A DNA stretch of 45,604 nucleotides from Pseudomonas laurentiana. Lineage in GTDB: Bacteria > Pseudomonadota > Gammaproteobacteria > Pseudomonadales > Pseudomonadaceae. The notes below the pieces were generated by a model. It saw only the letters and a list, made by a program, of their open reading frames with translations. It was not told the origin of the DNA and ran no database searches. The translations under genes were made by a program, and so were the position numbers. Position 1 is the stretch's first letter; each line of letters begins with the position of its first letter. The stretch is from the NCBI RefSeq assembly GCF_014648275.1, contig NZ_BMQU01000014.1, positions 110,550 through 156,153 of the forward strand, in the 5' to 3' direction. Below, in pieces: positions 1,436 to 23,869 of this stretch.

Positions 1436-1552
1436 CTCCTAACGTTTAGGAGCTGCCACTGTTCGCGGCCAAACGAGAGAGGGTGGCAGCTGTACGAGGG
1501 TTGGCCGACCGGGACGTTAGGAGCCCGGCACACCCGAAGGTGTCCCGCGCAC
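1436..1552 (-). ncRNA. C4-like antisense RNA / structured leader of the DUF3077 gene
   Basis: Read on the minus strand, this leader has a UUCG-capped hairpin (about 1527-1546). It is followed by CTCCTAACG (complement of 1515-1523), which pairs perfectly over 9 nt with CGTTAGGAG at the ribosome site (complement of 1436-1444). Two further perfect stems interleave: 1451-1459 with 1483-1491 (AGCTGCCAC/GTGGCAGCT) and 1467-1472 with 1501-1506 (GGCCAA/TTGGCC). This layout matches the C4 antisense RNA of phages P1/P7, which is processed from a leader and blocks the ribosome site of the downstream gene. The C4 assignment is from memory of the consensus; the pairing is seen directly. Confidence 0.6.
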
Positions 1553-1751: not shown

Positions 1752-2090
1752 CTAGCTGTGGTAGGTCATCCACCAGGCTTCCCGGCAGGTTGAGTTGAAG
1801 GTCATGTGCGCTGGCGATACGGTGAACTGATCGACCGGGCACTCCAGCACCTCATAGATGATCCAACACTCGGGGCAGGTGTTTTCACAGACGGGCAAGC
1901 GGTCTTGTTCGAGGGTGCGTCGAATGACCACACCATCGGTAAACGTCGCGGTCAGGATGTGCTCCGTAACCTCAAGCCCTTCGTCCACAGTGCTGTTTGA
2001 GCTGACGCTATAGTCGCGAACACACACCGTACTCTCTGCACCGTGAAGTGCCCGGATATACAGTGCCAAGTGCTGCGTTGCCTCTTTCAT
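1752..2090 (-). CDS. hypothetical protein, Cys-rich C-terminal half
   Basis: Unrecognised protein of 112 aa with no signal peptide or membrane segment. The C-terminal half is rich in Cys: a CENTCPEC cluster is followed by an ECPVDQF segment and a single Cys in STCREAWW. This could be a metal site or a disulfide cluster. The ATG at 2090 has AGGTGG eight bases upstream; a GTG 12 bases earlier has no ribosome site. It has no operon partner. Base composition is less biased than in the core genes to the right. Probably a lineage-specific accessory gene; no function is proposed. Confidence 0.55.
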   Translation of the reverse strand: MKEATQHLALYIRALHGAESTVCVRDYSVSSNSTVDEGLEVTEHILTATFTDGVVIRRTLEQDRLPVCENTCPECWIIYEVLECPVDQFTVSPAHMTFNSTCREAWWMTYHS

Positions 2091-2302
2091 GCGGTGTGCC
2101 ACCTAGGTATTGCGGGGGAGTTTTAACCACTACCGCGCTTGTCGCAACGGGTCGGCCGACACTCAGAATGACCGCGGACAATGCGCAAGTACAAGCACAG
2201 GTTGCAAAAATGCTCAGCCAACTTAGACAAAAAGCCACGGCCAAGCGATAAGAAAATGACGTATGATAATGCAGCCCAAATGCAAATATCGGTTCGTTTT
2301 AA

Positions 2303-23456: not shown

Positions 23457-23533
23457 TGGTCGGGGTGAGGGGATTCGAACTCCTGACATCCTGCTCCCAA
23501 AGCAGGCGCGCTACCGGACTGCGCTACACCCCG
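23457..23533 (-). tRNA. tRNA-Pro (anticodon TGG), copy 2
   Basis: A 77-nt gene with encoded CCA. Acceptor CGGGGTG pairs perfectly with CACCCCG, the anticodon loop CTTTGGGAG holds TGG, and the T-loop is GTTCGAATC. Its sequence is identical to the copy at 23713-23789. It is the last gene of the four-tRNA array. Confidence 0.97.
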
Positions 23534-23630
23534 GTAAAAAGATGGAGCCTTACGGCGCCTTCTTTTCGTTACATGACACATACGGTGTCATGCCTTTTAA
23601 GATTCGAGCCTGACGGGTCAGACTCGAAAA

Positions 23631-23706
23631 TGGTGGGTCGTGTAGGATTCGAACCTACGACCAATTGGTTAAAAGCCAACTGCTCTACCAACTGAGCTAA
23701 CGACCC
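23631..23706 (-). tRNA. tRNA-Lys (anticodon TTT)
   Basis: A 76-nt gene with encoded CCA. Acceptor GGGTCGT pairs perfectly with ACGACCC, D-arm AGCTCAGTTGGTAGAGC, and anticodon loop CTTTTAA with TTT. It is third in the array, six bases after the first tRNA-Pro. Confidence 0.97.
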
Positions 23707-23712
23707 TGAAAA

Positions 23713-23789
23713 TGGTCGGGGTGAGGGGATTCGAACTCCTGACATCCTGCTCCCAAAGCAGGCGCGCTACCGGACTGCGCTACACCCCG
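23713..23789 (-). tRNA. tRNA-Pro (anticodon TGG), copy 1
   Basis: A 77-nt gene with encoded CCA, identical in sequence to the copy at 23457-23533. It is second in the array, four bases after tRNA-Asn and six bases before tRNA-Lys. Confidence 0.97.
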
Positions 23790-23793
23790 AAAT

Positions 23794-23869
23794 TGGCTCC
23801 GCGACCTGGACTCGAACCAGGGACCCAATGATTAACAGTCATTTGCTCTACCGACTGAGCTATCGCGGA
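23794..23869 (-). tRNA. tRNA-Asn (anticodon GTT)
   Basis: A 76-nt gene with encoded CCA. Acceptor TCCGCGA pairs perfectly with TCGCGGA, and the anticodon loop CTGTTAA holds GTT. It is first in the array, about 100 bases downstream of the promoter. Confidence 0.97.

Follow-up and report, generated by a model that had tools for sequence, protein, structure and literature searches.

The window analysed here, a stretch of 45,604 nucleotides from Pseudomonas laurentiana, carries a short unit on its minus strand, with a1, b1, C4, a2, b2 and a DUF3077 gene following one another along that strand (the layout of phage P1); all unit coordinates below refer to the minus strand. The gene (1143-1430, 95 aa, ATG at 1430-1428) matched PF11275 at 31.5 bits against a cut-off of 21, in agreement with the original prediction, and its product matched no Pfam family besides DUF3077. 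The leader in front of it had been called C4-like. In a covariance search, positions 1479-1565 scored 80.3 bits against Rfam RF01695 (gathering score 45) over all 87 model positions, above the 68.8 bits of the phage P1 C4 used as a control. Judged by its sequence, the leader is a true full-length C4 antisense RNA with three stems, and more than C4-like. Its folding energy on the minus strand was low (z = -3.74; 0 of 200 shuffled sequences equally low), the UUCG hairpin described earlier is present, and C4 folded independently when the whole leader was folded. By analogy with P1, the processed 5' end is expected near 1559.

The loop of the third stem (b', 1514-1523, CTCCTAACGT) is an anti-Shine-Dalgarno segment supported by co-variation. 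It forms a perfect 10-nt pair with b2 (1436-1445, ACGTTAGGAG), which holds the Shine-Dalgarno sequence; 9 nt had been predicted, and the leader complement of the ribosome site put forward at that time (CTCCTAACG, in 1514-1523) is exactly complementary to that site at 1436-1445. The spacing from the ribosome site to the ATG is 5 nt, and the DUF3077 gene begins directly behind b2. The junction segment a' (CGGCCAA, 1501-1507), likewise supported by co-variation, pairs over 7 nt with its target a2 (TTGGCCG, 1466-1472). This is one of two interleaved stems that had been described, and it is 7 bp long where 6 had been given; the other (1451-1459/1483-1491, 9 bp) joins GTGGCAGCT at 1451-1459 to its complement in C4, and is common to many paralogues and not variable. 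C4 and its target share one strand and a stretch of about 130 nt. Even without C4, the Shine-Dalgarno can be paired by a local hairpin (CTCCTAA-ACG-TTAGGAG, 1436-1452).

Two further sites complementary to the RNA lie upstream of C4 and, together with the local hairpin, are additions to the original prediction: a1 (1636-1642, TTGGCCG) is complementary to a', and b1 (1621-1628, ACGTTAGG) to the b' loop. The sequence features expected of a C4 unit were found in the window, with complements of 10 nt (b'/b2), 7 nt (a'/a2), 7 nt (a1) and 8 nt (b1). A c4-a1b1 element (1628-1680) consists of a stem-loop (1646-1669) and a hairpin (1632-1647) whose loop holds a1; it scored 32.2 bits against RF03163 (E 1.8e-6), under the gathering score of 46.7. 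The gathering score was reached by 10 of 19 chosen loci for c4-a1b1 and by 3 of the 19 for isrK (RF01394). The window differs from the c4-a1b1 family in remaining under that score and in having no clear terminator between b1 and C4; a GGCG...CGCC hairpin stands downstream of b1 (1609-1622), and a terminator scan found none there. Some relatives have a terminator-like GCGCC..GGCGC-TTTTTTT after the b1 hairpin, and a run of T5 or longer was present within the last 75 nt upstream of C4 in 42 of 110 elements. In L044, L049, L055 and L062, two competing GGCGC hairpins, one of them followed by a T run, lie between b1 and C4, and these may possibly act as a C4-controlled transcription attenuator beside b1. 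A weak promoter-like sequence (TTGCGT-17 nt-TATGGT, 1674-1702; 7 of 12 consensus matches) was picked out by eye from the upstream regions, several aligned loci having TTGCAC/TACTCT-like hexamers there; a consensus promoter scan of the window leader found no promoter.

The C4 RNA of phage P1 is cut from its leader by RNase P as an RNA of about 77 nt, and blocks translation by pairing with a2 and b2. The P1 record lists a1 and b1 (both putative), C4, a2, b2, icd and ant1; from a1 to b2 the order is that of the window. The a1-b1 gap is 7 nt in P1 and window alike; b1 is separated from C4 (Rfam start) by 60 nt in P1 and 55 in the window, C4 (Rfam end) from a2 by 0 and 6, a2 from b2 by 22 and 20, and b2 from the start codon by 10 and 5, respectively. 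In P1 and P7, too, b' occupies the third loop and covers the ribosome site, with the a' target upstream, whereas the window C4 is chromosomal, belongs to a family with many copies per genome, and has DUF3077 in place of icd and ant. Because the downstream gene is DUF3077, with no icd or ant, the window unit was not classed as a P1-type immI operon. The P1 genes icd and ant1 share 4 nt; an equal overlap joins a short first ORF to the DUF3077 ORF in L002, L064, L073 and L101, and such a P1-type short overlapping first ORF is absent from the window.

Co-variation was measured on elements from 135 loci, which gave 113 unique full-length elements, 110 of them parsed. The first parser, which truncates loops containing TTGG, was used for the a1/b1 co-variation, the anchored test, the orthogonality and dual-match tests and the paralogue loop comparisons. 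For the other comparisons, the corrected parser was applied to 106 elements (the 110 minus the phage elements L131-L133 and minus L128, which was unreadable for the corrected parser; the three failures of the first parser stayed out). The correction shifts a few a' segments, and the window a' is 6 nt there versus 7 counted directly.

The longest b'/b2 complement averaged 7.48 nt in cognate pairs versus 4.82 in permuted pairs (sd 0.10, maximum 5.22; 2000 permutations; n=106) and the a'/a2 complement 6.74 versus 4.29 nt (maximum 4.67; n=106), with the reservation that permutations overstate independence because the elements are related. A complement of at least 7 nt was present for b2 in 74 and for a2 in 90 of the 106 elements. 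When one element per distinct loop was kept (n=29), the effect persisted (b2 7.10 versus 5.36, maximum 6.10). For the Pseudomonas locus set, a protein search with the DUF3077 protein L063 gave 253 relatives, of which the best 80, all Pseudomonas, were kept and 78 parsed; the b2 mean was 7.26 versus 5.43 (n=78). At the upstream sites, the values were 6.46 versus 5.10 for b1 and 6.88 versus 5.34 for a1 (first parser, n=110 including three phage elements).

In the anchored test, the anchor was TCCT/AGGA only, so that the fixed part of the pairing was left uncounted. From 107 elements, 54 had TCCT within the loop and 40 of these an AGGA ahead of a start codon, giving 32 unique pairs, 30 of them with five readable positions. 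The first four variable positions were all paired in 23 of the 30 unique pairs, against at most 6 in shuffles (5000), and each of the five variable positions showed 24 to 29 Watson-Crick matches (8 to 12 expected) made up of three or four pair types. The original prediction had named compensatory changes among homologous leaders as a check, and many such changes were found in the pair of loop and ribosome site. The sequence data show the RNA itself, its four target sites and the co-variation between them.

C4 copies are numerous in the genus. The source genome has 26 C4 matches above the cut-off and 15 DUF3077 matches, and 13 of these 15 stand directly behind a C4, at a distance of about 90-190 nt, as the proposed genome-wide count of copies was meant to reveal; the other two lie on contig C8 without C4. 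The corresponding counts were 5 of 6 DUF3077 matches in genome G049 and 2 of 2 in genome G010. C4 was found in 54 of the 59 genus genomes sampled, source genome included (53 above the cut-off), with a mean and a median of 17 copies per genome in that sample. A fuller search of G049 gave 55 C4 matches, the genus maximum, 52 of them above the cut-off and scattered along the chromosome. Over the 59 genomes, C4 and DUF3077 counts were correlated (Spearman 0.68): the 5 genomes without C4 are also without DUF3077, and of the 14 without DUF3077, 9 carry 1 to 13 C4. In an order-wide sample of 145 genomes, C4 was found in 20, source genome included, with a maximum of 6 outside the genus, and neither C4 nor DUF3077 was found in any of 14 control genomes. 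Among the best 80 of the 253 relatives, C4 stands upstream of the gene on the same strand in 79 loci, at a median distance of 48 nt.

Only 13 of the 26 C4s of the source genome keep a b2 match of at least 7 nt, and 7 of the 26 keep neither a2 nor b2. These seven (L005, L011, L014, L022, L023, L025 and L026) score above the cut-off, and several of them form a tandem with the next unit just downstream; either decay of the copies or an orphan role as trans-acting RNAs could account for them. The source-genome unit L012 (contig C16) has matching a', b', a2 and b2 but no start codon at the usual place, and L001 is a near-identical unit with a start codon.

Orthogonality among copies was assessed for elements with a b2 match of at least 7 nt, drawn from loci that cover about 29 of the 55 C4 matches in G049 and about 27 of the 36 in G010. 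Both sites matched in 11 of 12 cognate versus 2 of 132 other pairs in the source genome, in 17 of 17 versus 0 of 272 in G049, and in 18 of 18 versus 3 of 306 in G010. Among 30 paralogue pairs of at least 70% protein identity from G049 and G010, none shared a loop, 7 had a' in common, and 2 had a cross match of 7 nt; the source genome contains no such pair among 45. Per-site difference in 29 paralogue pairs was 0.49 for the loop, 0.31 for a' and 0.25 for the remaining C4, the loop diverging more than the remaining C4 in 25 of the 29. Different loops occur in paralogues of up to 98% protein identity. Co-variation is illustrated by L334 and L337, where the proteins are 95% identical and the loops differ, with own matches of 10 and 9 nt and a cross match of 6. 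Between Pseudomonas genomes, the loop was shared in 48 of 322 pairs with at least 85% protein identity. That loops differ among close paralogues is more easily explained if the copies would otherwise silence each other; rapid neutral drift of loop and site together, or an exchange of coding regions, are possible alternatives. Silencing of mobile elements in trans was also considered and rejected: in a dual-match test of 57 DUF-type against 32 mobile-type specificities, split roughly by simple motifs, 2 of 1824 combinations matched at both sites, with no excess over shuffled sets (mean 2.42, maximum 6; 200 shuffles).

The commonest genes behind C4 in the sample encode DUF6124/DUF3077 proteins. 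Among 42 aligned proteins picked from one similarity cluster, 35 matched DUF6124 and 15 matched DUF3077 (E 0.01). C4 also precedes members of an 87-90 aa family and of a 94-aa family, some proteins of 175 aa and short leader ORFs. The 87-90 aa family, which starts near YMPLTG/YMALTS, is found behind C4 in L079, L082, L083, L110 and L111, and in L048, L051, L053 and L074 the C4 precedes a protein of 173-175 aa that by eye resembles a BRO-type antirepressor. No Pfam family was matched above the cut-off by the one 87-90 aa family member tested, by two short leader ORFs, by the 94-aa family or by P1 Icd. The 42 proteins were also compared with PHROGs, where two unnamed families match (8 and 5 of the 42), and with NCBIfam (one weak match, 1 of 42); the best PDB match was a designed three-helix bundle (E 0.018). 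The median dN/dS of C4-led coding regions was 0.16 over 203 pairs, which are not independent and were chosen at 60% protein identity or more, biasing values low; these coding sequences bear the mark of purifying selection. As the C4 operon of P1 holds a division inhibitor and an antirepressor, the DUF3077 protein may, by analogy with P1 Icd and Ant, be host-acting or regulatory.

The window unit is not constant at its genomic site: it is absent beside the orthologue of the neighbouring hydrolase gene in all 11 other relatives that have that gene (38 relatives were searched, and 12, including the source genome, had the hydrolase). An ORF of 116 aa upstream of the unit (1752-2102, minus strand) has no Pfam match, and in none of the relatives examined was it found next to the hydrolase. 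The window protein has homologues at E 1e-15 in 2 of 298 other genus genomes. One of these, in L302, is 54% identical over the aligned part and lies between a C4 with a leader ORF and a Toprim/DUF927 gene pair; a KilA-N gene stands before the C4, with a tyrosine integrase gene and a tRNA gene farther upstream, and the integrative element is likely a phage satellite. The order of L302 recurs in L300 and L301, each with C4 followed by a DUF3077 relative and a DUF927 gene, and an integrase was found in L301.

In P4-type satellite immunity, the CI antisense RNA controls an operon that precedes replication genes. The C4-DUF3077 elements resemble this arrangement in carrying Toprim/DUF927 genes, two of them with an integrase, and differ from it in that their RNA belongs to the C4 family. 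Since integrative elements also carry DUF3077 within C4 operons, phage satellites are the probable source of the units, and the likely path would lead from a satellite operon to a chromosomal unit and then to amplification. The suggestion that DUF3077 is a domesticated effector fits with its relatives in these operons and with the purifying selection on C4-led coding regions.

In phage records, C4 precedes other genes. A tblastn search of 50,697 phage records gave no match for the window protein or L063, and one match, at a record edge, for a DUF6124-type protein. In 72,556 plasmid records, one query had no match and another had one, on a P. putida plasmid. Some IMG/VR contigs have DUF3077 relatives behind C4, and may include host flanks; the viral pattern scan covered at least 61 parsed elements, with 5 phage loci in the search. 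In L043, from a bacterial genome of the genus, the C4, target and leader ORF are identical to those of the satellite phage phiAH14b (L130).

The best explanation, which we hold with good confidence, is that the leader C4 antisense RNA keeps the DUF3077 gene behind it silent. The C4-type reading of the leader in the original prediction is supported to this extent, and the silencing itself would proceed as follows. A transcript would start upstream of a1, from a putative promoter, and run via C4 into the gene; C4 would be excised from it as a stable three-stem RNA, as in P1, where RNase P is used. Pairing of b' over 10 nt at the ribosome site and of a' over 7 nt just upstream would then prevent ribosomes from starting, possibly with help from the local hairpin there. 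Through the a1 and b1 copies before C4, the RNA probably also dampens the transcription from which it arises. Production of the protein would be confined to cells in which the matching C4 is absent or titrated, for instance when the unit has newly entered a naive cell. The source would be a phage-satellite immunity operon, amplified as independent, mostly non-cross-matching copies.

The local hairpin bears on how far this silencing would depend on C4. An ORF and a Shine-Dalgarno could be recognised in 72 elements; when their target regions alone were folded, the Shine-Dalgarno was paired in 61, against a mean of 40.3 and a maximum of 50 when the letters upstream of that site were shuffled (50 runs). 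As the hairpin can hide the ribosome site without C4, occlusion may partly not need C4: either C4 may have to invade it, or its presence may be enough to keep the DUF3077 gene low. The excess of such hairpins, in the window and beyond it, and the closeness of C4 to its target on one strand would suit a cis-only folding switch, in which the ribosome site would be contested by C4 and the local hairpin of one transcript and no free C4 RNA would be needed; compensatory change alone is no proof of trans action. We consider such a switch unlikely, since P1 C4 works as a processed RNA (Hartmann, 1995, as quoted in the available text of PMC5320573), the window C4 folds independently in the whole-leader fold, and loops differ in 30 of 30 close paralogue pairs from two genomes, at 0.49 per site against 0.25 for the scaffold. 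It is more doubtful still that the units are remnants of satellite or prophage immunity regions and have no function today. The loss of the b2 match in half of the source-genome copies, the missing start codon of L012 and the absence of the unit beside the hydrolase in 11 of 11 relatives could be read in that way, but the co-variation at four sites, the dN/dS of 0.16 and the C4-gene order kept in 79 of the 80 Pseudomonas loci (best of 253 relatives) argue against it. Least probable of all is superinfection immunity, by which chromosomal C4s would silence incoming C4 phages or satellites with the DUF gene as a passenger. The window C4 does have the whole a' and 9 of the 10 b' letters of the satellite-type L059 from another genome, and this is one possibility named for Acinetobacter in the accessible part of Weiss et al. 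(2016; PMC5320573); it leaves the conserved proteins unexplained.

Type I toxin-antitoxin systems likewise have an antisense RNA that covers a small protein's ribosome site; classically, this RNA lies on the opposite strand. A selfish addiction unit of a related kind, with a harmful DUF3077 product and an RNA antitoxin, would be compatible with C4 silencing of the DUF3077 gene, and we rate it as conceivable though not likely. It would agree with an antisense RNA at the ribosome site, with patchy sites and tandem copies, with the position of DUF3077 before Toprim/DUF927 genes in integrative elements and with P1 Icd, which the consulted portion of the literature describes as a cell-division inhibitor. 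Toxicity of the product is conjectural, however, PADLOC models of known defence proteins matched 0 of the 42 proteins at E 0.01, and, in contrast to the RNA of classical type I pairs, C4 shares the strand of the gene and precedes it. To C4 silencing of the gene we add, tentatively and with more doubt than belief, a wider proposal: satellite-derived units would keep nearly the same small protein under many mutually non-crossing antisense locks, which diverge faster than the scaffold because a shared lock means silencing by the resident (a P1/P7-like heteroimmunity among tens of elements), and effectors would be freed by loss or titration of one C4.

The available text of Weiss et al. (2016; PMC5320573) describes, in what its authors call to their knowledge the first such report, amplified C4-like Group 1 sRNAs with variable a' and b' in the Acinetobacter baumannii chromosome, expressed and apparently processed like C4; phage or bacterial targets are discussed there as possibilities, and in that text the targets are left open, whereas the C4s described here have targets that are linked and co-vary, and a defined gene family. 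Chromosomal C4 RNAs hence gain a linked target and a testable gene family, and DUF3077 and DUF6124, families of unknown function, a first handle. Should the copies act in trans, a single genome would hold many natural, mutually orthogonal pairs of RNA repressor and ribosome site, in which the diversification of antisense specificity could be followed in a natural setting, a rare opportunity, and which might serve as a parts list for synthetic biology. A search found no literature linking C4 with DUF3077 or DUF6124, subscription papers being mostly outside its reach. A Burkholderia paper reportedly names RF01695. In the accessible parts of the respective reports, C4 is placed in Proteobacteria and phages and c4-a1b1 in gamma-Proteobacteria and phages (Weinberg et al., 2010), and a furfural-tolerance study mentions a P. 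putida DUF3077 pseudogene altered by an insertion.

Outside the genus, L152 and L153 (37% G+C, from another genus of the order) have a C4 with matching sites before a gene that by eye is KilA-N-like, and in L152 an isrK match overlaps the leader. Elsewhere in the window, four tRNA genes (Pro, Lys, Pro and Asn) lie at 23457-23869 on the minus strand, both tRNA-Pro genes having the same anticodon.
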